NCBI RefSeq assembly: GCF_026248685.1
Contig: NZ_CP111036.1
Location: 1,922,001-1,986,000 of the forward strand
DNA: 64,000 nucleotides
Source: Haladaptatus caseinilyticus
GTDB taxonomy: Archaea; Halobacteriota; Halobacteria; Halobacteriales; Haladaptataceae
Reading direction: 5' to 3'
The position numbers and the translations under genes were made by a program. Below the pieces are notes generated by a model that saw nothing but the letters and a program-made list of their open reading frames with translations, was not told the DNA's origin and did no database searches. Shown in pieces: positions 8,201-20,721 of this stretch; positions within the stretch are counted from its first letter, which is position 1; every line of letters starts with the position of its first letter.

Positions 8201-10300
8201 CTGGTTCCCCATGTTCGCGACGTCTGCGTGTACGGTGAGGGTTTCACCCTGTTCGATTTCGTCCGTGGCTTGCAGGTTCGACACGTCGAAGAACGAACCG
8301 AGGATGGTCATCTGATCGCTTTCCGAGTCGTTTTCCGAGAACACACCGTAGTGAACCGTTCCACCCGGCAAGTTCGATGTGTCCACTTGGAACGTGACCG
8401 TCGTTTCGTGTGGTCTGTCAACGGGGTCATCGACACCGTCCGGTGCCATATCGACCGGAGTCGTCGAGATCGGGTCGCCGTTTCCGAGGTCGGTTTCGTT
8501 CTGTGCAACGTGGAGTTCGATCTCTTCGAGCGCTCCTTCCTCGCCGATATTTTCGAGGTCGACGGTGACGTTAACCGTCTCACCCTGTTCGGCTTCGCCG
8601 GGTGCGCTGAGATTCGAGACGTCGATCTCGCCCTCATCAAGCGTTCCCTGTACTTTCCGTTGAAGGAGCTGTAAGTCCGCGTACGTGACCGTACCGTCGC
8701 GGTCCATGTCCGCGAGGTTCGGGTTGAAGTTCGACGGGTTCTGCCCCGCGAGGTACTTTTGGGTGAGTCGTACGTCCTGAACGGTGACCGAACCACTCTC
8801 GTCAACGTCGCCCAACTCGGATTCGGGAATAAATATCATCTCATCGACTGCCGCGTAGGCGTCGATGATACCCTTCCCGTACCGGGTGTCTTTCTCGTTT
8901 TCGGGCGCATCCCAATCGTCGGGTTTCTCGGCCGTCGATTCGAGTGCGTTCTCGATTTCCGCGACGGAAGCGTCGGGGTTGGCTGAGCGCATCAGCGCGA
9001 CCGCTCCCGCGACGTGCGGTGCGGCCATCGATGTCCCGGATAGTTCCTGATAGCCGCCGCCGGGTTCGGCGCTCAACACGTCCACACCGGGTGCCGAGAC
9101 GTCGGGTTTGACGAACCTATCCGGCCAGTCCGCTGGTGGGTTCTCCCAGTTGATCTTGTCGATTATCGCTCCACTAGAGAAGTCCGCGATGTCCTCGTTG
9201 CTGTCGGATGCACCGATGGAGAACGAGTGATAATCGTTGCCGGGCGACCCAACACAGCCCTGGCCGGAGTTCCCGGAGGAACTAACGAACGCCGTGCCGA
9301 GCGACCGCGCGTTCTCGACTACCGGAATCCACGCGTCACTGTAAACGGGACCAAACAGGCCACAACCAGCGCCGAGGCTGAGACTCGCCACGTCGGCGTC
9401 CTCCTCGACGGCCCATTGGACACCGCCGATGACACCCTCGGTCGACCCACTGCCACCGGGGATGACCATCCCGTGAATCAGATCCGCTTCGGGTGCGACA
9501 CCGATTGCCGTACCGCTACTGGCACCACCCATTGCGGTGGCACTGGTGTGTGTTCCATGATAATGGCTATCCCGCGGCTCGGAGCCGGGAACCATGTTCC
9601 CGCTATCATCGAATTCCGCCCATCCGCCGGGGTAGGTCGGGTCGGATGGATCCTCGGTGTACAGTTCGATGTCCGGATGGGTGATATCGACGCCCGTGTC
9701 GAGGACGGCGATCTTCGCACCGTCACCCCGAGTCCCGAGTTCGTCCCAGACTCGTGGGGCACGAATTTGGTCGAGGCCGTACGTCGTATCGTCCGGGGAC
9801 ACGTCCGAGTCTGCGCTCGGTTCGGGTTTTGTGGTCTCGGGAACGGTGTATTCCCGACTCTTGACGATCGATTTTACGCCGTTAACGGCGGCCAATTCGT
9901 CGATTTTCACGGTATCGGTATCGACGCTGATCGCGACCGCGTTCACGATCCAGAACGTGTTTTGTACGTCAACACCCGTTCGGGATTCGAGTTGGGTAAC
10001 CGACTGCGCTCTCGTCTCGGCGGCGTGTTGCTTCAGGTGCCGTATCGCCGCCTTTTCGTCCATTTCCGGATCCACCGACGTTTGTTCGAAGAGTAACAGT
10101 ACCTGTACTGTCCCCTCAGCACCCTCCAATGCGGGGTCGATTTGTACGTCGTTGGGGTCTTGTTTTGTCTCACTGTCGATACTTTCAAACTGGGGCGTCT
10201 CCTGTGCCGCTGTGAGTCCGATAGTGCCGGTTCCGATTACCGACAGTATCAGCAACAACGACAGCAAGATCGCGTCTGTGTGCTTCCTTCTTCGACTCAT
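5210..10300 (-). CDS. Giant secreted subtilase with dockerin, CARDB and carboxypeptidase-regulatory-like domains
   Basis: The protein has 1696 residues from the ATG at 10300; an upstream in-frame GTG at 10324 is less likely. Order: signal peptide (1-32, SRRRK start, cleavage near AAQ), I9-like propeptide (about 62-155), S8 catalytic domain (about 175-485), type I dockerin-like pair of calcium loops (about 497-552), and three CARDB repeats (about 558-1087). The third CARDB repeat is split by a DUF4350/GATase-like insert at about 808-1028. Three carboxypeptidase-regulatory-like beta domains (about 1088-1345) and three more CARDB repeats (about 1345-1670) follow. The triad is Asp201 (VLDTGVD), His248 (YHGTHTS) and Ser424 (SGTSMAAPH). 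It is a secreted serine protease that probably binds surfaces or partners through its tail. No C-terminal sorting motif is visible. Confidence 0.9.
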   Translation of the reverse strand: MSRRRKHTDAILLSLLLILSVIGTGTIGLTAAQETPQFESIDSETKQDPNDVQIDPALEGAEGTVQVLLLFEQTSVDPEMDEKAAIRHLKQHAAETRAQSVTQLESRTGVDVQNTFWIVNAVAISVDTDTVKIDELAAVNGVKSIVKSREYTVPETTKPEPSADSDVSPDDTTYGLDQIRAPRVWDELGTRGDGAKIAVLDTGVDITHPDIELYTEDPSDPTYPGGWAEFDDSGNMVPGSEPRDSHYHGTHTSATAMGGASSGTAIGVAPEADLIHGMVIPGGSGSTEGVIGGVQWAVEEDADVASLSLGAGCGLFGPVYSDAWIPVVENARSLGTAFVSSSGNSGQGCVGSPGNDYHSFSIGASDSNEDIADFSSGAIIDKINWENPPADWPDRFVKPDVSAPGVDVLSAEPGGGYQELSGTSMAAPHVAGAVALMRSANPDASVAEIENALESTAEKPDDWDAPENEKDTRYGKGIIDAYAAVDEMIFIPESELGDVDESGSVTVQDVRLTQKYLAGQNPSNFNPNLADMDRDGTVTYADLQLLQRKVQGTLDEGEIDVSNLSAPGEAEQGETVNVTVDLENIGEEGALEEIELHVAQNETDLGNGDPISTTPVDMAPDGVDDPVDRPHETTVTFQVDTSNLPGGTVHYGVFSENDSESDQMTILGSFFDVSNLQATDEIEQGETLTVHADVANMGNQQDTQTVEYRFDDLENPVRTKNVTLGVGESTAVEFTVDTSGIDNSTYEHGVFTEDDSQTTNVTVLEAFFDVSITDAPEEASAGETITVTATVENTGNATDVQTVEYETIPRSVDVAVVDVSDNEHGDDIASTLEEHLDTDIYTVDVVTADELPGAMGEYDTFVVQRFGSDQVASDFLDELDDDQSVVYLDSYQGASAYAYADGVYRLYNVRGDPVERDASSSSSTPVTIDIRENHPLFTNVGEVGDSVEVFTGSTMWGSWFAEYSGTILADADYGSGSAGPAVAVNDDKNEVLLSAVGRDYFTDESDFTEEGDLLLANSVAYLSGFGSAANGEERTQDETTANVTLAPGERETVEFAHTLEDEIDPSIDWLHVVSSEDDQDESSLDITIDRGNLTGTVTDSETGEPVENATVTIDVDIGDGDYTAVTDGNGEYEIENVPSGTHNSTVSADGYDEVTDTVTVPVDDTTTANFELDPTPGTISGTVTASDTGTGVANVTVAAEDNDGNVHETTTNENGSYSLGVPAGMYVVNVAGTPGDYRPEEIVSVAPGETVDGVDFTVEPRDGAIEGYVINAAGIPVEGATVVDADQGAFNVTTDENGYYRIEGLDRGTYALRTMHDRYPDSDITFTEVEANETTTRNLTLGTFFEVSNLSAPSEAEQGEGITVSATVTNVGEREDTRTVFYFPPGTNFGSSVLLESQSELSERVTLDGGESTTVEFSYEINPDRAVGDYEHGISADEVASTNITVTEDEPTEEASFTVTRFDAPTEVNPGEQVTVSATIGNIGNASGTQTVEYHLAGTARNTSDVTLDAGENTTVEFTVTMPSDTGSYEHGVATDDDQHSTSISVVESDPDPAYFRVSDVNGPAEVTQGKEITVSATLTNTGDEAATQTIWLFFMSSSSTVERDLGAQEMVALYKPRSAKQVTLAGGRLTTVEFTYSVDESTAPGEYEFAVSSLQETKSGFLTVLPAGNQTVPNQGSLDGISDTMSGYSLSEVIV

Positions 10301-10804
10301 TATTTCAGTTTCTCTGTATTTCACACAACAAATCTAAATTTTGATTTAAGATTGTGTGACACGTTGACTTGGTAATTATCCAACTAATAACTATTGCTTA
10401 AATTATTATATTAATTTTAAATATTCAGAAAAATTCTACTGAGCGAAGAAATTTCCACGGATCGGTGACGAAATCCGCAAAACGAACGTAGGCTCTTCGC
10501 TGGTGAACCGGAAAGTGGTCTCGAATCGGTCCTCCCGATCTCTTGAACGAAGCGTACCGTGGGCGTTCCGTAACGCGCCCCAACGTGTTTCACATCGGTT
10601 CGTCCCCGTTTGGCAGCAATATCTGCGTGATCTATCGCCGGTCAGATTGGTGCCCTTAGATTCCCTTAGTCAGTATAATCACACACGGCCCCGACGATGT
10701 CTCCCGGTTTTCGAAATAAATTATATCTCACTAATTATTCTTATCCGACACCACCTGTCTGACCGCCACGCTTAAATAGGAGGTCGCGTCTCCAACCGAG
10801 TACA
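10301..10804. other. AT-rich intergenic region
   Basis: This 504-base gap lies between divergent genes. Bases 10325-10440 are strikingly AT-rich, with several TTTAAAT-like stretches that could serve the subtilase promoter on the minus strand. No ORF in it shows family features. Its right end holds the leuA-type promoter. Confidence 0.5.
10771..10780 (+). promoter_or_regulatory. TATA-like box of the leuA-type gene
   Basis: The sequence CTTAAATAGG is centred about 30 bases before the ATG at 10805, which is the normal haloarchaeal distance between TATA box and start of a leaderless message. It supports 10805 as the true start and so supports the view that the downstream frame change is a lesion within the gene. 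Confidence 0.55.
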
Positions 10805-12020
10805 ATGTCTGAAAACGACAGCACCTCCGAGAGGGGGGGTCGAGTTCTTCGAGGGCACGTTAGCCCACACCGACGAGATTGAAAACGTTCGAATTTTCGA
10901 CACGACGCTCCGTGACGGCGAGCAGACGCCACGCACCTCGTTCACCCCGGCCGAGAAGCGCGAAATCGCGGCCACGTTGGACGAAATGGGAACCCACGTC
11001 ATCGAAGCGGGATTCCCGGCCAACGGGGACGCGGAATTCGAGGCCGTCCGTGACATCGCCGAATCGACGCAGGCGACGACGTGCGCGCTGGCTCGCATCG
11101 TGGATGGCGACGTGGAAACAGCACTGGAAACCGGCGCAGGAATGGTTCACATCTTCGCTTCGACCAGCGACGTGCAAATCGAGGATTCGATGCACGCCAC
11201 GCGCGAAGAGGTGAAGGATCGCGCCGTGAAAGCCGTGAAACGCGTCGTAGAGGCCGGAGCGAGCCCGATGTTCTCGCCGATGGACGCGACGCGAACCGAT
11301 CCGGAGTTCATGGCCGAAATCATCGAAGCGGTCACCGAAGCAGGTGTCGAGTGGATCAACATTCCCGACACCTGCGGCGTCGGGACACCGACACGGTTCG
11401 CCGACCTCGTGAGACAAATCCGTGAGTACACCGACGCTCGGATCGACGTCCACACGCACGACGATTTCGGGATGGCCACCGCGAACGCGATGGCCGGATT
11501 GGAGGCTGGCGCGGATCAAGTGCAGGTCAGCGTCAACGGTATCGGAGAGCGTGCAGGAAACGCCGCCTTCGAAGAGGTCGTCATGGCCGTAGAAGGCGTC
11601 TACGGCGTCGATACCGGCATCGACACGACACGTATCTCGGAACTCTCGGAGATGGTCGCCGAGTACAGCGAGGTCTCGGTACCCGTGAACAAACCCGTCG
11701 TCGGTGCGAACGCGTTCGCACACGAGAGCGGGATTCACGCGGCCGGGGTCATCGAGAACAGCGATACGTTCGAGACCGGCGTGATGAAACCCGAGATGGT
11801 CGGCGCGCGCCGGGAGTTCGTGCTCGGTAAGCATACCGGCACTCACGCGGTCCGAAAACACCTCATACAGGCCGGATTCGCCCCGACCGAAGCCGAGGTT
11901 CGGCGAATCACGCGTCGGGTCAAAGACCGCGGTGCCGAGAAAGCACGAGTTACCGTCAGCGACGTCCGTCGATTCGCCCGCGAACTGGGCGTCGATTCCA
12001 GCGAGGAGGTCAAAGCGTAA
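10805..12020 (+). CDS. leuA: 2-isopropylmalate synthase family (LeuA-type) gene with a frameshift near the 5' end
   Basis: From the ATG at 10805 translation reads MSENDSTSERGG and then leaves frame at seven Gs (10833-10839); that frame meets a TGA at 10880. Dropping one G joins it to VEFFEGTLAHTDEIENV and then the HMGL-like catalytic domain with FDTTLRDGEQTP, the family's substrate and metal motif. Further marks are DVHTHDDFGMATANA and VNGIGERAGNAA (metal-binding His-x-His region). The restored product is about 404 residues and ends after an HxxG..GKHTG region without the C-terminal LeuA regulatory domain. The enzyme condenses acetyl-CoA with 2-oxoisovalerate (leucine branch) or with pyruvate (citramalate synthase); context favours leucine. 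An internal TTG at 10977 would lose the DTTLRDGEQ catalytic loop and cannot give an active enzyme. Confidence 0.8.
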
Positions 12021-12117
12021 TCATGCCGTCTCGCGCTTGTTTCACCACCGGCGAGCGACTGCACCACGGAACATCGTGGCCGACAATGGTACGGCGAAAA
12101 AGTTGCCAGCCACGAAA

Positions 12118-12126
12118 GAGTTATTG
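12118..12126 (+). promoter_or_regulatory. Possible TATA-like box upstream of the ilv leader ORF
   Basis: GAGTTATTG is centred about 22-24 bases upstream of the leader ATG at 12144. The match is weak, but the spacing would place transcription start at or just before the leader ORF, as in leaderless haloarchaeal messages. Confidence 0.3.
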
Positions 12127-12143
12127 CGGTCGCCGTAACAAGA

Positions 12144-12239
12144 ATGCAAACACAGATGCGACAGTCACACGCAGCCCTCGATTCGCAGGAGTCGAGCGGT
12201 GCGGCTGTCGAGCGCGTACTCATTATTGTAGGGGTCTAG
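12144..12239 (+). CDS. Putative branched-chain amino acid leader peptide
   Basis: This 31-codon ORF (ATG at 12144, TAG at 12237-12239) lies 142 bases before ilvB. Its last ten residues are VERVLIIVGV: seven of ten are Val, Leu or Ile, the three end-products of the operon. The preceding residues are unremarkable (starts MQTQMRQSHAA). The last codons overlap the 5' arm of a hairpin. This is the layout of ribosome-mediated attenuation leaders such as E. coli ivbL, whose sequence also ends in a Val-rich run before Gly. I infer a regulatory role from position and codon content; there is no protein family to support it. Chance occurrence cannot be excluded for so short an ORF. Confidence 0.5.
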   Translation: MQTQMRQSHAALDSQESSGAAVERVLIIVGV

Positions 12240-12250
12240 CTACCCCTACA
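12227..12250 (+). terminator. Putative attenuator hairpin overlapping the leader stop codon
   Basis: TGTAGGGGT (12227-12235) and ACCCCTACA (12242-12250) form a perfect 9-bp stem around the six-base loop CTAGCT. The loop contains the leader's TAG stop. The 5' arm coincides with the Ile-Val-Gly-Val codons. A pyrimidine-rich CTCTTCTCAT follows. A ribosome stalled at the Ile/Val codons would cover the 5' arm and block the stem; release at the stop codon would free it. The lack of a long T run makes termination strength uncertain, so a processing or translation-blocking hairpin is an alternative. Confidence 0.5.
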
Positions 12251-12310
12251 CTCTTCTCATCCCCGACCACTGAATCGCCATCCAACAACCCCGAGTTTAC
12301 GCGCAAAACC

Positions 12311-12385
12311 ATGTCACGAACACGACCGACAGCAAAGCGGTATCGACCGACGAACCACACACGAACCGAGGTGACGAACTCGTGA
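12311..12385 (+). CDS. Possible short upstream ORF overlapping the ilvB start
   Basis: A 24-residue ORF begins ATG at 12311 (MSRTRPTAKRY...) and stops at TGA 12383-12385, overlapping the ilvB GTG (12382) in a GTGA junction. Such overlaps are typical of translational coupling. The product would be basic, rich in Arg and Thr, and matches no family I know. It could be real translation that delivers ribosomes to ilvB, or simply chance. Confidence 0.25.
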   Translation: MSRTRPTAKRYRPTNHTRTEVTNS

Positions 12386-14184
12386 GCGAGCACGCGGTTC
12401 GACAGGTCTCCCACGAATCGGAAGAGTCGGACGATGACCAGTCCGGCGAACGGGCCGAAACCCCCGAGGGCCGCCCGAACGAAGCGGATACGAGCGAATC
12501 GCAGACGGGTGCGAGCGTCGTCGTCCGCGCGCTCGAATCCGCGGGCGTCGAAACCCTCTTCGGCGTGCAGGGAGGGGCGATCATGCCGGTGTACGATGCA
12601 CTCGGCAAATCCGACCTCCGCCACGTTACGATGGCACACGAGCAGGCCGCGGCACACGCCGCCGACGCCTACGGTATCGTCGCCGGAACGCCGGGTGTCT
12701 GTCTCGCCACGTCCGGTCCGGGAGCGACGAACCTCGTCACGGGACTGGCGGATGCGGACATGGACTCAGACCCGGTCGTGGCCCTGACGGGACAAGTCCC
12801 GACGAACTTCGTCGGCAACGATGCGTTCCAGGAAACCGATACAACGGGCGTCACGGCACCCATCACGAAGGCGAACTACTTCGCGGGCGATACCGACACC
12901 GTCGGCGACACGGTCGGCGAAGCGTTCGCGCTCGCCAGCGAGGGTCGGCCGGGGCCGACGCTCGTTGACCTGCCTAAAGACGTAACGCTGGCAGAAACCG
13001 ATGCTGGGGAACCGACCGCCGAGACGCCGGAACACTACAACCCACAGGAAAAGCCGGACGCCGATGCCGTCGCGGAGGCGGCCCGAACGCTGGAAACCGC
13101 GGACCGGCCGTTGATTCTGGCTGGTGGCGGTGTCATCAAAGGCGATGCAAGCCCGGAACTACGGGCGTTCGCCACCGGACACGACATCCCGGTGGCAACG
13201 TCGATGCCCGCCGTGGGCGCGTTCCCCGAAGACCACGACCGGTCGGTCGGCATGGTCGGCATGCACGGAACTGGCCCCGCAAACATGGCCGTCACGCACT
13301 GCGACACCCTCCTCGCAGTCGGGTGTCGTTTCGACGACCGACTGACTGGCGGCGTCGATTCGTTCGCACCGGAAGCGACCGTCATTCACATCGATATCGA
13401 CCCGGCGGAGATTTCGAAGAACGTCCACGCCGAGGTCCCTGTCGTGGGCGACGCCGGTGCCACACTCGCCGAAATCGGTGAGGAGATGAACTCCACGCCG
13501 AGCGTCGACGACTGGCGCGAGCAAATCTCCGACTGGAAAGAGGAGTATCCGATGACCTACCACGCGCCCGAGGACGGGCCGGTCAAACCCCAGTTCGTCG
13601 TCGAAGCGTTCGACGCCGCCACGGCCGACGACGCCATCGTTACGACGGGGGTCGGCCAGCACCAGATGTGGGCAGTCCAGTTCTGGACGTTCACCGAACC
13701 CAGAACGTGGGTGTCCTCACACGGTCTCGGAACGATGGGATACGGCCTACCGGCCGCGATCGGTGCGCGAATGGCCGCGGCAGACGACCAGCAGGTCGTC
13801 AGCTTCGAGGGCGATGGCTCGTTCCTGATGACGGTGCAGGAACTGTCGGTGGCTGTCAGGGAAAACCTGGACATCACCGTGGCCGTCCTGAACAACCGCT
13901 ACATCGGCATGGTTCGTCAGTGGCAGGACGCGTTCTTCGACGGGAATCGCGTCGCCTCCGAGTACGATTGGTGTCCCGACTTCGCCACCCTCGCCGAAGC
14001 GTTCGGCGCGAACGGGTTCACGGTTGACCACCCCGACGAAGTGGCCGACACCGTCGAGGCCGCACTGGCGTACGACGGTCCTTCCGTCGTGGATTTCCAC
14101 ATCGACCCCGACGAGAACGTCTACCCGATGGTCGCGAGCGGCGGTGCCAACGGAAAATTCGCCCTGTCGGAGGATCAACTATGA
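12382..14184 (+). CDS. ilvB: Acetolactate synthase, large (catalytic) subunit
   Basis: The 600-residue ThDP- and FAD-dependent enzyme condenses two pyruvates to acetolactate, or pyruvate with 2-oxobutyrate, the first common step of Val/Leu/Ile synthesis. A polar, acidic N-terminal extension of about 45 residues precedes the core. The Pyr domain has [14 protein letters not shown] and the catalytic Glu in [17 protein letters not shown]. The ThDP-binding motif is [12 protein letters not shown] and continues to [14 protein letters not shown]. The GTG at 12382 is chosen because it sits directly before the family-like N terminus. It overlaps ilvN by four bases (ATGA), implying translational coupling. 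Control may come from the leader hairpin 130 bases upstream and from the ilvN subunit. Confidence 0.95.
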
Positions 14185-14891
14185 GCGGAGAGGATTCGAC
14201 GTCCCAAGCGGGAATGCCGGGTCCAGCACCGGACGAGCGACCACATCCCGACGGACGGCGAAACGCACACGGCGTCCGAATCGACCCCGAGGCGGACGCC
14301 GAAGCGGAGCGGCGGACGGCGGTGGTTTCCGCCCTGGTCGAGCACGAACCCGGCGTCCTCTCGCAGGTGTCCGGGCTGTTCTCCCGACGACAGTTCAACA
14401 TCGAGAGCCTGACCGTCGGCCGGACGACGGTCGATGGCCACGCACGAATCACGCTCGTCGTGGAGGAAACCGACCACGGCATCGAACAAGCGCGAAAGCA
14501 GTTGGCGAAGCTTCCGACCGTCATTCAGGTGGGCGAATTGGACGACAACGCGGTTCGCGCCGAACTCGTCCTCCTGAAAGTTCGCGGCGACGAACCCGAC
14601 AAGGTCCACGCCATCACCGAGATGTACGAGGGACAGACGTTGGACGCCGGGCCGCGAACCATCACGGTGCAGATCACCGGCGACCAGCGGAAGATCGACG
14701 ACGCCATCGACGCCTTCCGGCAGTTCGGCATCATCGAAATCGCGCGGACCGGGCAGACCGCTCTGGCCCGCGGCGACACGCCGACGACCCCCGGCGAGGA
14801 ACCGGGGCACTCGACCGAACCGACCGACAGCGGCTACGAAACCGAAGCGGAACGCGGCGAAACGAACCGATCGACGACGGAGACCAACTGA
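14181..14891 (+). CDS. ilvN: Acetolactate synthase, small (regulatory) subunit
   Basis: The 236-residue protein contains an ACT domain beginning near residue 45 ([20 protein letters not shown], then [11 protein letters not shown]) and the C-terminal ALS_ss_C half with [10 protein letters not shown] and [20 protein letters not shown]. The ACT domain binds valine in relatives and tunes the large subunit. Both ends carry polar, acidic extensions: about 40 residues in front and about 40 after the last conserved helix, which are usual in halophiles. The ATG overlaps the ilvB stop, so both subunits should be made in a coupled way. Confidence 0.95.
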
Positions 14892-14902
14892 GGATTTCGA
14901 CA

Positions 14903-15937
14903 ATGACAACGATATACTACGACGACGACGCGGACGACGCACAGCTCGCAGACAAGACGGTTGCCGTCCTCGGCTACGGCAGTCAGGGCCACGCCCACGC
15001 ACAGAACCTCGCCGAAAGCGGGGTGGACGTGGTCGTCGGCCTCCGCGAATCATCGGCGTCACGGAAGGCGGCGGAAGCCGACGGTCTGCGTGTAGCGACG
15101 CCGACGGAAGCAGCCAGCCAAGCGGACGTCGTCTCCGTATTGGTGCCGGACACCGTCCAGCCAGCCGTCTATGACGACATCAAGTCCGAACTGGAAGCGG
15201 GCGATACCCTCCAGTTCGCACACGGGTTCAACATTCACTACGGTCAGATCGAACCGCCGGAGGACGTGGACGTGACCATGGTCGCGCCGAAATCGCCGGG
15301 TCACCTCGTCCGACGAAACTACCAAGCCGACGAAGGCACGCCGGGATTGCTCGCGGTCTACCAAGACGCCAGCGGCGAGGCGAAAGCCGAGGGGCTGGCC
15401 TACGCGAAGGCTATCGGCTGTACTCGGGCGGGCGTGGTGGAAACGACCTTCCAGGAGGAGACGGAAACCGATCTGTTCGGCGAGCAAGCCGTGCTCTGTG
15501 GCGGCGTCACGGAACTCATCAAGATGGGTTACGAGACGCTGGTAGACGCAGGTTACTCGCCGGAGATGGCATATTTCGAGTGTCTGAACGAAATGAAGCT
15601 CATCGTGGACCTGCTGTACGAGGGCGGCCTCGGCGAGATGTGGGATTCGGTGTCCGACACCGCCGAATACGGCGGCCTGACCCGCGGCGAGGTCGTCGTT
15701 GACGACCACGCCCGCGAGCAGATGGAGACGGTGCTGGAGGGCGTGCAGAACGGCGAGTTCGCTCGCGAGTGGATTCTGGAGAACCAAGCCGGACGACCGG
15801 CCTACCGACAGAAGCGGCAGGCCGAAAAAAGCCACGACATCGAGGACGTCGGTTCGGAACTGCGGGACCTGTTCGCGTGGGCCGACGAGGACGAAGCTGA
15901 TGAAACGGAGAAAACGGAGGTGCCAGCCGATGACTAA
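14903..15937 (+). CDS. ilvC: Ketol-acid reductoisomerase
   Basis: This 344-residue class I KARI converts acetolactate to 2,3-dihydroxyisovalerate with NAD(P)H and magnesium. The N-terminal Rossmann domain has [15 protein letters not shown] (about residues 22-36). The catalytic all-alpha domain has [14 protein letters not shown] and the metal-binding [17 protein letters not shown]. The C terminus is a halophilic acidic tail ([17 protein letters not shown]). I chose the ATG at 14903, 11 bases after ilvN; a longer frame opening farther upstream is only read-through of other genes. The stop overlaps the next small ORF by eight bases. Confidence 0.95.
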
Positions 15938-16184
15938 CGAATCGAACGATAGCACGAGAGCGATGGCCGACGTGAGCCACGTCCATCCCTACGCCGACCA
16001 AGGTGCGATGACACGGCTGTTCAACCGTGGACCGACCGTGGCGGACGGTGGGGTTACGGAGGACGTGACCGACGAAACCGAACCCGACACGATGGCTGAG
16101 GTGTCACATTCCCCGCCGGAGGGGGCCGGTGATTCAGCGACAGTCTTCGAACGCGGCTACGAGCATCGGGTACGGGAGACATGA
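15930..16184 (+). CDS. Small repeat protein of unknown function in the ilv-leu operon
   Basis: This 84-residue ORF overlaps ilvC by eight bases and leuC by four (ATGA), so it is translated inside the operon. It has two copies of one motif. Residues 12-34 read [10 protein letters not shown]...LFNRG and residues 55-76 read [10 protein letters not shown]...VFERG; each is MA(D/E)VSH, a Pro-containing stretch, then (L/V)F(N/E)RG. The remainder is acidic and Thr-rich. I recognise no named domain. The position suggests a role with reductoisomerase or isopropylmalate isomerase, such as an assembly factor or a regulator, but this is only context. Confidence 0.7.
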
Positions 16185-17602
16185 GCGAGGGGACGCTGTA
16201 CGACACGGTGTGGGACGAACACCGCGTCACCGACCTCCCGACTGGACAGACCCAACTGTTCGTCGGGTTGCATCTCATCCACGAAGTGACGAGTCCCCAA
16301 GCCTTCGGAATGTTAGGGGAGCGCGACATGGAAGTCGCCTATCCGGACCGCACGCACGCGACGGTTGACCACATCGTTCCGACTGCCGACCAGTCTCGGC
16401 CCTACAGCGACGACTCCGCCGAGGAGATGATGGCGGAACTGGAAGACAACGTCCGAGAGGCGGGCATCGATTTCTCACACCCCGACTCGGGGGACCAGGG
16501 AATCGTCCACGTCATCGGCCCGGAACAGGGACTCACCCAACCCGGCATGACGATCGTCTGTGGCGACAGTCATACCGCCACTCACGGTGCGTTCGGCGCG
16601 CTCGCGTTCGGCATCGGAACCAGCCAGATTCGGGACGTGCTGGCCACCGGCACCGTGGCGATGGAGAAACAGGACGTCCGACAGATTCGCGTCACCGGCG
16701 ACCTCGGACTCGGTGTCTCCGCGAAGGACGTGATTCTGGAAATCATCCGCCGACTCGGCACTGACGGCGGCGTCGGCTACGTCTACGAGTACGCGGGCGA
16801 AGCGATCGAGAACCTAGGAATGGAAGGTCGGATGAGCATCTGCAACATGTCCATCGAGGGCGGCGCTCGTGCGGGCTACGTCAACCCCGACGAGACGACG
16901 TACGAGTATCTGCGCGAGACGGACGCCTTCCGCGACGATCCTGAAAAATTCGAGCGACTGAAATCGTACTGGGAGTCGGTCCGTTCGGACGAGGACGCCC
17001 AGTACGACGACGTGGTCGAAATCGACGGCAACAGCCTCGAACCGATGGTGACGTGGGGGACGACGCCCGGTCAGGGGGTCGGCGTCACGGAACCGATTCC
17101 GGAACCGGACGAGTTGCCCGAATCGAAGCGAGAGACGGCCCGGCAAGCGCAGGCGCACATGCGTGTCGAACCCGGCGAGACGATGGCTGGGTACGATATC
17201 GACGTGGCGTTCCTCGGGTCCTGTACGAACGCCCGCCTGCCCGACTTGCGGCGGGCCGCCCGAATCGTGGATGGTCGCGAAGTCCACACCGACGTGCGGG
17301 CGATGGTCGTTCCCGGCAGTCAGCGCGTGAAAGCCGCCGCGGAGCGCGAAGGATTGGACGACGTGTTCCGTGAGGCCGGCTTCGACTGGCGAGCTGCTGG
17401 CTGTTCGATGTGCCTCGGGATGAATTCGGATCAACTGGACGGCGACGAGGCCTGTGCGTCCTCCTCGAATCGCAACTTCGTCGGACGGCAGGGCAGTCCG
17501 GACGGACGAACCGTCTTGATGAGTCCCGAAATGGTCGCCGCTGCCGCGATACGCGGCGAAGTGACGGACGTACGCGAGTTAAAGGAGGTTGCGGAAGCAT
17601 GA
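16181..17602 (+). CDS. leuC: 3-isopropylmalate dehydratase, large subunit
   Basis: The 473-residue aconitase-family protein isomerises 2- to 3-isopropylmalate. It has the [4Fe-4S] ligands of the family: Cys in FLGSCTNARLPDL and the pair in AGCSMCLGMN. It also has IVCGDSHTATHGAFGALAFG near residue 125. The length is normal for the bacterial-type large subunit (about 465-475). The ATG overlaps the stop of the small repeat protein, and its own stop overlaps leuD, so the three are coupled. Confidence 0.95.
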   Translation: MSEGTLYDTVWDEHRVTDLPTGQTQLFVGLHLIHEVTSPQAFGMLGERDMEVAYPDRTHATVDHIVPTADQSRPYSDDSAEEMMAELEDNVREAGIDFSHPDSGDQGIVHVIGPEQGLTQPGMTIVCGDSHTATHGAFGALAFGIGTSQIRDVLATGTVAMEKQDVRQIRVTGDLGLGVSAKDVILEIIRRLGTDGGVGYVYEYAGEAIENLGMEGRMSICNMSIEGGARAGYVNPDETTYEYLRETDAFRDDPEKFERLKSYWESVRSDEDAQYDDVVEIDGNSLEPMVTWGTTPGQGVGVTEPIPEPDELPESKRETARQAQAHMRVEPGETMAGYDIDVAFLGSCTNARLPDLRRAARIVDGREVHTDVRAMVVPGSQRVKAAAEREGLDDVFREAGFDWRAAGCSMCLGMNSDQLDGDEACASSSNRNFVGRQGSPDGRTVLMSPEMVAAAAIRGEVTDVRELKEVAEA

Positions 17603-18219
17603 CGAAAACGAATGAGGGCACGACCGACGAAATAGAATCGACATCGGGAACCGGCGTTGCGGTTCGTGGGAACGACATCGACACCGACCAGATCATCCCG
17701 GCGCGATTCATGAAGGTCGTCACGTTCGACGGACTGGGACAGTTCTCCTTTTTCGATCAACGGTTTACGGACGAGGACGAGCAAAAAGACCATCCGTTCA
17801 ATCGCGACCAGCACCGGAACGCCTCGGTGCTGGTCGTCAACGCGAACTTCGGTTGTGGTTCCTCCCGCGAGCACGCGCCGCAGGCGCTCGCTCGCTGGGG
17901 TATCGATGCCATCGTCGGCGAGAGTTTTGCCGAGATTTTTGCCGGCAATTGTCTCGCGCTTGGAATTCCGACCGTCACCGCCGACGCGGAGACGGTCGGC
18001 GAACTACAGGCGTTCGCCGAGTCCAACCCTGACGCCGAAATCGAGGTGGACGTGGCGAACGAGACGGTTCGCTACGGCGACCGCGAAGTCGAAGTGAACG
18101 TGGACGACGCCCAACGAAAAGCCCTCGTGGAAGGGATTTGGGATACGACAGCACTGATGAAATCGAACGAGAAAGCGGTCGCAGAGACGGCAGAAAAGTT
18201 GCCATACGTGGAATCATGA
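17599..18219 (+). CDS. leuD: 3-isopropylmalate dehydratase, small subunit
   Basis: The 206-residue swivel domain partner of LeuC shows [17 protein letters not shown] near residues 20-36 and the substrate-recognition loop [15 protein letters not shown] near residue 83. The length matches the bacterial type (about 200). The true start is the ATG at 17599, which overlaps the leuC stop; an upstream open frame is read-through. Its stop overlaps the leuB ATG. Confidence 0.95.
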
Positions 18220-19199
18220 CCGAGCAGATCGCGATCGTTTCCGGCGATGGAATCGGACAGGAAGTCGTACCCGCGACTCGGCGAGTGCTCGAAGTCATCG
18301 GGCCGCAGTTCGAATTCATGGAGGCCGACGCAGGCGATGCCGTGAAAGAGGAAACCGGAACCGCGCTCCCCGACGGAACCCGCGAGCTGGTCGCCGGTGC
18401 CGATGCGACCCTGTTCGGCGCGGCGGGCGAGACGGCGGCGGACGTCATTCTTCCGCTCCGACGGGCAGTAGACTCGTTCGTCAACGTCCGCCCCGCGAGA
18501 GCGTATCCGGGGACGGACGCACTTCGGCCCGAAACCGACCTCGTCTTCCTCCGGGAGAACACCGAGGGCGTCTACGCGGGTCACGAATCCCGACTGACCC
18601 ACGACGTGACCACACTGACCCGCGTCGTTACCGAATCCGCCTCCGAACGACTCGCGGAATTCGCCTGCGAATACGTTGACGAGCGTGACGAGGACGGGTT
18701 CACCATCGCACACAAGGCCAACGTGATGCGCGAGACGGACGGCCTCTTTCGGGACACGGTGGACCGCGTAGCGGACGTTCGCGGTGTCCCCCACGACGAA
18801 GCCCTGATGGACGCACTGGCGACCCATCTCTGTCTCCGGCCGGAGGAGTATGGCGTTATCGTCTGTCCGAACCTCGCTGGCGACGTGCTCTCCGACCTCG
18901 CCGCCGGATTGGTCGGCGGTCTGGGTCTCCTCCCCTCTGCAAACATCGGCCCGGAAAACGCCCTGTTCGAACCGGTTCACGGTACCGCCCCGGACATCGC
19001 GGGCGAGGGTGTCGCGAATCCCTGTGCGACGATGTTCTCGGCGGCGATGCTACTGGAGTATCTGGGCTATGACGGGGAGGGACAAGCGGTTCGTGACGCG
19101 GTCGAATCGGTGCTGGAGAACGGTCCGCGAACGCCCGATTTGGGAGGTTCTGCCGGAACCGGCGAGGTCACTGAGGCGGTTCTGACGCGGTTGTCGTAA
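18216..19199 (+). CDS. leuB: 3-isopropylmalate dehydrogenase
   Basis: The 327-residue beta-decarboxylating dehydrogenase oxidises 3-isopropylmalate to 2-oxoisocaproate. Visible marks are [11 protein letters not shown] at the N terminus, [10 protein letters not shown] (substrate-binding region), the metal site in [21 protein letters not shown], and [12 protein letters not shown]. It closes the ilv-leu operon and its ATG overlaps leuD. The related isocitrate and homoisocitrate dehydrogenases share the fold, but the operon settles the assignment. Confidence 0.93.
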
Positions 19200-19224
19200 A
19201 CTCGTTTTGTTTTCCCTACTCGGG

Positions 19225-19455
19225 TCAGAATAGGCCAGAAGCCGCCACGAACATACCAAGTGCGCTGATTCCCACGAACGCGATTCGGGTCATTAGTTCC
19301 TTCTAGACCGCTGGTTCAACTTCGTTCCACGACCGCGTGCTTCCGATTGCATCCAACTGTTCGCTGAACCGGACGAGATGATACGAATAGCGATAGTCGA
19401 CCGCACCGAATAGAAGTCCCGCGAGACCGAAAAGAACCGTTTCGAAATCTACCAT
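19225..19455 (-). pseudogene. Small two-helix membrane protein gene interrupted by an in-frame TAG
   Basis: From ATG 19455 the minus strand encodes MVDFETVLFGLAGLLFGAVD, a first membrane helix. A soluble segment (FSEQLDAIGSTRS) follows, then a TAG at codon 51 (19303-19305), then in the same frame a second helix (IAFVGISALGMFVAASG) and a final TGA at 19225. Without the TAG this would be a 76-residue protein. Both halves look protein-like and no frame change is needed, so a single base change (for example from TGG or CAG) would have broken it. Small two-helix proteins with FSEQLDAIGS-like segments are common in haloarchaea; their function is unknown to me. Confidence 0.5.
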
Positions 19456-19687
19456 GGCTGAAAACTATTTTTAACAATCAAATATTTTCTGTTGCCTCAG
19501 GGAACGCGGTCGTTTTTCGCCGTCTCTGGCGAACAGTTGTCGTGTTCGTTCGCTCCTCCACGAACTGCTGAAACTCACTCCACGGAAATCATCATTAACG
19601 AGGGACTCGACCACGAATCTCCGGATTCCATATTGCACCACGACGGACACGAAACACTCATTTTGAAACCTGCCAATAAATTAATTG

Positions 19688-20305
19688 ATGAAAACCAGGT
19701 TATTCTCTCTGCCTGTTGCAGTAGCAACACTGGTTCTCCTCGCGGGATGTGCTGGGGTTTTTACGCAAGGACAGCCGAATACGACGGCAAGAACGCCGGA
19801 GACGGTCGAACCGACGACGACCGAGATACTCGAATCGATCACCACGACACAGCAAACGACCAGTCGTGTCGGTATTCGGGACGCAGAACTCGATTCGTTT
19901 GTCCGGACAGGAATCGACTGCGACCGGAATCCGAGAACGCTCAGGTTCGGGAAATCCACCACGACCGACACCATCGTAATCTCGGTGCAAGGACGCGTTC
20001 GCGTGAATGATACGGCTGTCGTGGTGAAACAACCCCGATTGGTGAAAACCGGGGCGACCACCTACCGACTGAATATCGAGTCGCACGCCGCGGAAACCGT
20101 CGGTCGGAGTTGCCTCGCTGAAGCAGGGTACGAAGCGACCGTTCTCCTGCCGAATCTGGCCGAAACCGAACTCGTTGTTTCCCACAACGGCGAAACGACC
20201 GGTTCCATCGGACACCAAACCGAATCCGGCGAAACGTCGCAGGCGGAAACGAAGACGGGAATAACCGAAACCGCTACCCGCCACTTTCGAGTACGAATCG
20301 CATGA
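19688..20305 (+). CDS. Secreted lipoprotein of unknown function
   Basis: The 205-residue protein begins MKTRLFSLPVAVATLVLLAGCAG, a Sec-type signal peptide with lipobox LAGC at about 18-21. A Thr-rich linker (about 30-58) and a globular part follow. The globular part has two cysteines (GIDCDRN near 77 and GRSCLAEAGYEATV near 139) that could form a disulfide. ATG 19688 is preferred to an adjacent in-frame TTG. The stop overlaps the start of the VOC gene (ATGA), so the two are probably co-transcribed. No family is recognised. Confidence 0.75.
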   Translation: MKTRLFSLPVAVATLVLLAGCAGVFTQGQPNTTARTPETVEPTTTEILESITTTQQTTSRVGIRDAELDSFVRTGIDCDRNPRTLRFGKSTTTDTIVISVQGRVRVNDTAVVVKQPRLVKTGATTYRLNIESHAAETVGRSCLAEAGYEATVLLPNLAETELVVSHNGETTGSIGHQTESGETSQAETKTGITETATRHFRVRIA

Positions 20306-20721
20306 CACTCCTCGACGACGTCTACGAAACGCACATCGAAGTGGCCGACCTCGACCGGGCGATGGAATTTTACGGCAACACGCTCGGACTCGAACTGGAT
20401 CGCCACGAAGAAGAACGCGGCATTGCGTTTTACTTTACTGGCACTCCGCGCTCGATGCTCGGCGTGTGGGAAGAGGACGACCCGGAGCCAGGACACTTTG
20501 CTTTCCGCGTTTCGGAAAATCGGGTTGACGAGATGCTTCCCTTCCTCGAAGCACGCGACATCGAACCGCGCGCCGCGTTCGGGGTCGAACCCGACGAACC
20601 AATCGTCCACCCGTGGATGCCGAGCGCGACGGTGTACTTTGCCGACCGGGACGGGAATTCGCTGGAACTGCTCGCTGACTTGTCCGACGACCCAGACCCG
20701 GATAAAAACCGATGCCCCTGA
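20302..20721 (+). CDS. VOC (glyoxalase/dioxygenase-fold) protein
   Basis: This 139-residue single-domain protein has the two beta-alpha-beta-beta-beta modules of the vicinal oxygen chelate fold. The first is ETHIEVADLDRAMEFYGNTLGLEL at residues 8-31 and the second includes HFAFRVSENRVDEMLPFLE. The possible metal ligands are His10, His65 and the Glu of NSLELLAD near the end. Family members are glyoxalases, ring-cleaving dioxygenases and resistance proteins; the substrate cannot be inferred. It overlaps the lipoprotein gene by four bases. Confidence 0.85.
   Translation: MTLLDDVYETHIEVADLDRAMEFYGNTLGLELDRHEEERGIAFYFTGTPRSMLGVWEEDDPEPGHFAFRVSENRVDEMLPFLEARDIEPRAAFGVEPDEPIVHPWMPSATVYFADRDGNSLELLADLSDDPDPDKNRCP

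Follow-up and report, generated by a model that had tools for sequence, protein, structure and literature searches.

The window analysed here, 64,000 nucleotides of the 4.8 Mb genome of Haladaptatus caseinilyticus, carries a locus for branched-chain amino acid synthesis. A short leader region lies between the stop codon of leuA (about 12020) and the GTG start of ilvB (12382), with leuA upstream and ilvB, ilvN, ilvC, a small ORF, leuC, leuD and leuB downstream. The first enzyme gene behind the leader is ilvB (12382–14184, +), which encodes the large subunit of acetolactate synthase (Pfam TPP_enzyme N, M and C) and whose product has its nearest named relatives in Haladaptatus species. It is followed by ilvN (14181–14891, +), encoding the small subunit with an ACT domain (Pfam ACT_AHAS_ss and ALS_ss_C). 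The initial annotation of the window had argued that the pathway synthase lacks its feedback domain. This holds for LeuA, in which Pfam recognises no C-terminal regulatory domain, but not for IlvN, which keeps its ACT domain. Since the latter is retained, RNA control would add to feedback and not replace it.

The leader contains a short ORF, here called ORF1. Reading positions 12144–12239 gives MQTQMRQSHAALDSQESSGAAVERVLIIVGV, in which seven of the ten final codons specify Val, Leu or Ile, and TAG (12237–12239) follows directly, as had been described. The length of 31 codons given before stands as far as the reading frame and the end are concerned; the start at 12144 does not, as the promoter position and the relatives favour the in-frame ATG at 12156. 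A BRE-like AAAGAG followed by a TATA-like TTATTG forms a candidate core promoter (12115–12126, +), and the box is conserved 5′ of the leader ATG in relatives. In nearly all loci a CRMAAGRGTTAT- or CGCAAGGGTTAT-type BRE/TATA box stands 32–35 nt before the leader ATG, with a distance of 32 nt in 55 loci and of 35 nt in 32 loci. Since TTATTG (12121–12126) lies 35 nt upstream of ATG 12156, and an ORF beginning at 12144 would precede the expected RNA start, ORF1 probably starts at 12156 (MRQS...), leaving ATG 12144 upstream of the RNA. It then comprises 27 codons (12156–12239, +; MRQSHAALDSQESSGAAVERVLIIVGV), and its MRQS/MRRS start is kept in relatives. The box-to-ATG distance of 32 or 35 nt suggests that the ORF1 start is leaderless or near-leaderless, a mode that is usual in H. 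volcanii, where leaderless transcripts make up 72% of the protein-coding ones (PMC4983044). As expected of an attenuator, the biosynthetic operon is thus preceded by a short leader ORF that has a promoter of its own.

IlvB relatives were gathered and the 600 bases upstream of each were read. One locus (L081) was left out because its upstream region ends at a contig edge; it is the only one without GTAGGGG. This element is present in all 99 distinct readable ilvB leaders of the Halobacteriales. A pattern search for ATT-GTAGGGG-N5-8-CCCC found it in 214 of the 293 sampled Halobacteriales genomes and almost never in controls. The form with ATC occurs in 73 genomes, 59 of which lack the ATT form; comparison of both lists showed an in-frame stop in the loop in 59 of these 59 genomes and none in the chance-like extra ATC matches. 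With either ATT or ATC before GTA-GGGG-N5-8-CCCC, the element is found in 273 of 293 genomes (93%), its genomic context being checked for the fetched loci only. Direct reading added six further genomes with the element, in some of which CTC or ATC precedes GTA. It is absent from two deeply diverged genomes (G032 and G034, IlvB 56–58% identical), and outside the order the wider phylum gave only scattered matches at chance level. The comparison upstream of ilvB that the initial annotation had called for returned the support it had named: across the order, a conserved stem lies over the end of a short ORF whose final codons include Ile and Val.

For a test of ATG phase, any ATG 26–42 nt behind TTAT was taken and its frame ignored. 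All 89 ATGs at this promoter distance in the leader loci were in frame with GTA and the conserved end and stop, and 99/99 distinct leaders have an in-frame ATG upstream of GTAGGGG. In independent pairs of relatives, pN/pS of the ORF1 body was 0.77 compared with 0.98 in the other frames. Because of the ATG phase and this difference, we consider that the translation of ORF1 matters and its peptide does not. What the relatives share is the start, the frame, the end codons, the stop and the hairpin; the peptide body is not conserved, and its length ranges from about 15 to 50 codons. The final residues are Ile-Val-Gly-Ala/Val, followed by the stop. Judged from sequence, a kept frame combined with a free peptide sequence is the mark of a leader peptide and not of a protein.

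The putative regulatory codons at the end of ORF1, recognised by their position-specific conservation, are GTA CTC ATT ATT GTA (12216–12230, +; Val Leu Ile Ile Val). Counted from the last GTA, Ile, Leu or Val codons occupy positions 0, −1, −3 and −6 in 100, 100, 80 and 50% of leaders, compared with 13% in the body, position 0 being fixed by the search pattern. Codons for the products of the pathway are thus enriched at the control position, as attenuation would require. The codon before GTA is ATT in 88 of the 99 leaders, ATC in 10 and GTC in one, and ATT makes up 173 of 201 Ile codons within the last seven ORF1 codons. Both codons are rare in the ilvB genes of the same loci, where GTA accounts for 0.5% of Val codons and ATT for 7.6% of Ile codons. 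In Natrialbaceae-type leaders GTA is retained despite having no pairing partner there. Only 3–5 Ile, Leu or Val codons stand near the end of ORF1, which counts against an attenuator.

The last codons and the stop lie in a hairpin (12227–12250, +), with the in-frame TAG in its loop. Its arms, TGTAGGGGT (12227–12235) and ACCCCTACA (12242–12250), pair perfectly over 9 bp, as previously claimed, with a folding energy of −14.6 kcal/mol (z −3.9), and none of 200 shuffled sequences folded as well. GGGG/CCCC with an in-frame stop is found in 98 of 99 loci, with a spacer of 5, 6 or 8 nt. The spacer classes keep the stop at or near the loop: GTC TAG CCCC, GCC TGA GCCCC, GCC GCC TAG CCCC and GTC TAG CTA CCCC. 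The pair inside GGGG/CCCC is C-G in 86 loci and T-A in six, which amounts to covariation. The outer repeat bases are mostly lost, with zero or one outer pair in 64 of 99 loci, while GTA stays. The in-frame stop lies 3–4 codons past GTA in 91 of 99 loci and eight codons past it in seven, and it is lost in one; this one and the seven loci in which the stop stands a few codons past the stem speak against attenuation. A natural exception is locus L087 (genome G018), where the hairpin is intact, the loop stop has changed from TGA to TGG (GCTTGGGCCCC) and the frame stays open for 29 codons past GTA.

Behind the stem follows a G-free, C/U-rich tract (12248–12264, +; ACACTCTTCTCATCCCC), defined by its base composition and G-free run length. 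Across relatives, positions +20 to +40 after GTA contain 45% C, 26% T and 9% G, and the longest G-free run has a median of 19 nt compared with 6 nt in the coding control. TTTT occurs at +18 to +75 in 38 of 99 loci as against 0.6% in the control, and almost never in the other bins between −300 and +600. In the window the corresponding zone has only a short run, TTT (12296–12298, +), about 46 nt past the stem; this weak T-tract is a further point against an attenuator. The arrangement of an intrinsic terminator, a GC-rich stem with a U-run directly behind it, was not found: the stem is there, and the sequence behind it is CU-rich. In H. volcanii in vivo, T-stretches terminate with 95% efficiency and one tested hairpin without a T-stretch with 59% (PMC7237163). 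From these figures and the CU/T tracts, a terminator is plausible, although not of the bacterial stem-plus-U-run form. The archaeal termination factor FttA might act in the CU/T zone; its exclusion by a coupled ribosome is put forward only as a hypothesis in the literature (PMC11616081).

Between this zone and ilvB lies a second small ORF, ORF2 (12311–12385, +), which the initial annotation had missed. Its TGA overlaps the ilvB start (GTGA). The same layout was found in 73 distinct loci, where an ATG 65–122 nt (mostly 79–95 nt) past GTA opens a frame closed by a TGA within the ilvB start codon (ATGA or GTGA), so that ORF2 and ilvB show the −4 overlap of a translationally coupled pair. Ile, Leu and Val make up 3.5% of the codons in the ORF2 frame; the two other frames have 12% and 9%, and IlvB has 18%. 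Low T content explains part of this poverty, but the frame difference remains. With a pN/pS of 1.25, the ORF2 peptide shows no conservation. In 82 of 94 loci an SD-like motif stands before ilvB, and an internal GAGGTG in the ORF2 of the window is a possible SD for re-initiation. In H. volcanii, genes with −4 nt overlaps are coupled by termination-reinitiation (PMC10666635), and SD motifs are not used in 5′-UTRs and are enriched at reinitiation sites (PMC3986360). We take ORF2 to be coupled to ilvB, presumably through reinitiation.

Eight related genomes (seven Haladaptatus and G010) carry a second leader whose body has diverged (for example MKQQVNVSHTDASDAVVGPILIVGV) and which keeps the same Ile-Val-Gly-stop hairpin. 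These loci (L115–L117 and L147–L151) have a promoter, an ORF ending in IVGV or IVGA before the stop, and the hairpin. In six of the eight genomes the ORF downstream, MADV-H-PP...FERGNEGRR, is related to the small ORF that separates ilvC from leuC. The genome of the window itself has kept the small-protein gene outside the window (L152), and the leader there (about 1190–1270 of L152) has decayed (SILNGGV-stop). Since the end and the hairpin persist on different bodies and in front of different genes, a movable regulatory device is supported. The ilvC-leuC small ORF (15930–16184) contains two MADV/MAEV-H...F-RG repeats, and its relatives stand alone behind the second leader. It matches nothing in Pfam or NCBIfam, and may encode a small protein linked to branched-chain synthesis.

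A separate observation concerns the 5′ end of leuA (window 10805–10900; L002–L080), where an in-frame ATG is almost always missing at the expected place. An ORF that does begin with ATG (MSENDSTSERGGRVLRGHVSPHRRD in the window), often with a TATA box upstream, overlaps the leuA start. LeuA lies in the +1 frame relative to this ORF in 67 of 67 distinct loci, around the near-invariant core CGAGTTCTTC, which in the ATG frame contains the Val-Leu codons GTT CTT. We suspected a sequencing error from a G7 run, and dropped this explanation as loci without the run share the frame layout. The arrangement suggests a conserved +1 frameshift or an overlapping leader. The start of HVO_1510 was flagged as a problem earlier, and leucine control was speculated upon (PMC8305020).

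We put the probability that the ilvB leader works as a ribosome-mediated attenuator at roughly 60%. The promoter, frame, end codons, stop in the loop, hairpin, tract, ORF2 overlap and their conservation are all there to be read at the loci, and stalling, termination, reinitiation and the amino-acid signal are what we infer. In our model, the RNA would start no more than a few bases away from the ORF1 ATG, and a ribosome would load at its 5′ end and trail the polymerase. When Ile- or Val-tRNA is scarce, the ribosome would stall on ATT or GTA and cover the 5′ arm (GUAGGGG); the hairpin would then not form and transcription would read into ilvB-ilvN-ilvC-leuCDB. When Ile and Val are plentiful, the ribosome would reach the stop in the loop and leave, the hairpin would form, and together with the G-poor CU/T tract it would end transcription before ORF2. 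On read-through RNA, ORF2, nearly free of Ile, Leu and Val codons, would pass ribosomes on to ilvB by termination-reinitiation at GTGA or ATGA. The sensor part of this device is well supported, and the terminator step would be its putative output. Partition-function folding with the footprint of a stalled ribosome blocked gave, on average over 94 loci, no antiterminator stem. Simulated stalling revealed no structure masking the SD either; only the hairpin changed, and nothing refolded downstream. As no competing antiterminator or SD-masking structure is present, any switch would rest on occlusion alone.

The ivbL-ilvBN, ilvGMEDA and leu attenuators of E. coli are ribosome-mediated transcription attenuators. 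Like these, the haloarchaeal leader has a promoter-proximal ORF before a branched-chain operon, product codons near its end and a hairpin over that end, and as in leuL rare codons are favoured. Unlike them, it lacks the set of pause, antiterminator and terminator stems and a U-run behind the stem, and it has its stop inside the loop, a near-leaderless start, an ORF2 poor in Ile, Leu and Val coupled to ilvB, and an archaeal polymerase. The earlier comparison with E. coli ilv/ivbL logic is therefore apt for the leader ORF with Ile/Val end codons over a stem, but does not extend to the antiterminator and the U-run. Without these this is not a classical ivbL-type attenuator, and a model in which the ribosome simply occludes the 5′ arm fits better. 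In pyrBI-type and tna-type Rho-dependent attenuation of E. coli no antiterminator is involved, and the leader ribosome itself obstructs the terminator or denies access to the termination factor. Such a direct block is shared with our model, although the signals there are UTP and tryptophan, and to our knowledge archaea have no Rho. The C. glutamicum ilvBNC leader ORF precedes the same pathway genes; three hairpins are reportedly assumed there (PMC11857589), whereas the haloarchaeal leader has one, and the two are unrelated by sequence, with no Rfam match. In H. volcanii, 16 uORFs have been listed in long 5′-UTRs, covering only ORFs of 15–31 codons (PMC4983044, Table 2). They resemble ORF1 in being small and lying in haloarchaeal leaders, and two of them precede genes for aminoacyl-tRNA synthetases, but no hairpin or codon logic is described and their translation was not tested in that study (PMC4983044). 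The absence of ilvB1 from this list, within its scope of 15–31 codons, counts against an attenuator (PMC4983044). The uORFs before the gene of a tryptophan-tRNA ligase (trpS-like HVO_A0127) and before pheS (HVO_2948) might be further such leaders (PMC4983044). No similar leader with Trp codons was conserved before trpC among 20 genomes. In Rfam, nothing matched 9500–20500 even with E allowed up to 5, nothing matched in 16 related loci, and at the gathering score the window contained nothing but a tRNA. A 'leuA-Halobacteria' RNA motif was not confirmed in the literature searched, and no family was matched by a covariance model. We found no archaeal attenuator of this type in the literature searched, which covered few subscription papers, and make no claim of priority.

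The most serious competitor keeps the same sensor and changes the output, so that stalling on ORF1 would control the translation or stability of a full-length mRNA, through ribosome access to ORF2 and from there to ilvB, or through an RNase cutting at the hairpin or in the CU tract. The overlap of an ORF2 without Ile, Leu and Val codons with the ilvB start, the SD-like motif before ilvB (82/94), the action of SD motifs at reinitiation sites and not in 5′-UTRs in H. volcanii (PMC3986360) and the lack of a classical terminator all fit this view. However, simulated stalling leaves the start regions of ORF2 and ilvB unaltered, and T-tracts occur only between the hairpin and ORF2, where a purely translational switch needs none. 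We regard it as unlikely, at somewhat under one chance in four.

The remaining readings are far less probable. An inverted repeat that serves as a repressor's DNA operator or RNA site, with the ORF incidental, would suit the Haladaptatus repeat, which is perfect and palindromic in DNA (TGTAGGGGT...ACCCCTACA). We reject a DNA operator because the half-site spacing varies (5, 6 or 8 nt) while the stop is always kept in frame; the loss of outer repeat bases in most loci (zero or one outer pair in 64/99) beside a kept GTA and the ATG phase (89/89) also argue against it. Nascent-peptide arrest of the TnaC kind, in which the IVGA/V end would sense a ligand in the ribosome, is marginally less probable still. 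It would account for the fixed Ile-Val-Gly-(Ala/Val) beside the stop, but these few residues are the only ones conserved, on a body of about 15 to 50 codons that evolves freely, and the GGGG stem itself dictates Gly-Ala/Val. Moreover, the residue before the stop varies, the stop stands eight codons on in seven loci, and the synonymous choice of ATT and GTA is conserved too. Short ORFs are common in GC-rich genomes, so an ORF and a hairpin might meet by chance, or the ORF might encode a conserved small protein without regulatory role. This is scarcely credible: end, frame and hairpin are conserved order-wide and the peptide is not, and conservation in 99/99 leaders and 273/293 genomes excludes a chance origin.

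We see about an even chance that the attenuator reading holds in its full form, namely an order-wide archaeal attenuation of origin independent of the bacterial one, with a near-leaderless leader ORF whose rare Ile/Val codons and stop lie inside the hairpin, termination free of a U-run (by the hairpin alone or with FttA), and an ORF2 stripped of Ile, Leu and Val that feeds ilvB in starvation. With the leader in about 93% of the sampled Halobacteriales genomes, natural variants at hand and a genetic model in Haloferax, any regulatory use should be directly testable. If true, it would add a control of elongation, which is little known in archaea, would account for the regulation of branched-chain amino acid synthesis in haloarchaea, and would place an amino-acid-starvation switch of bacterial type in archaea.
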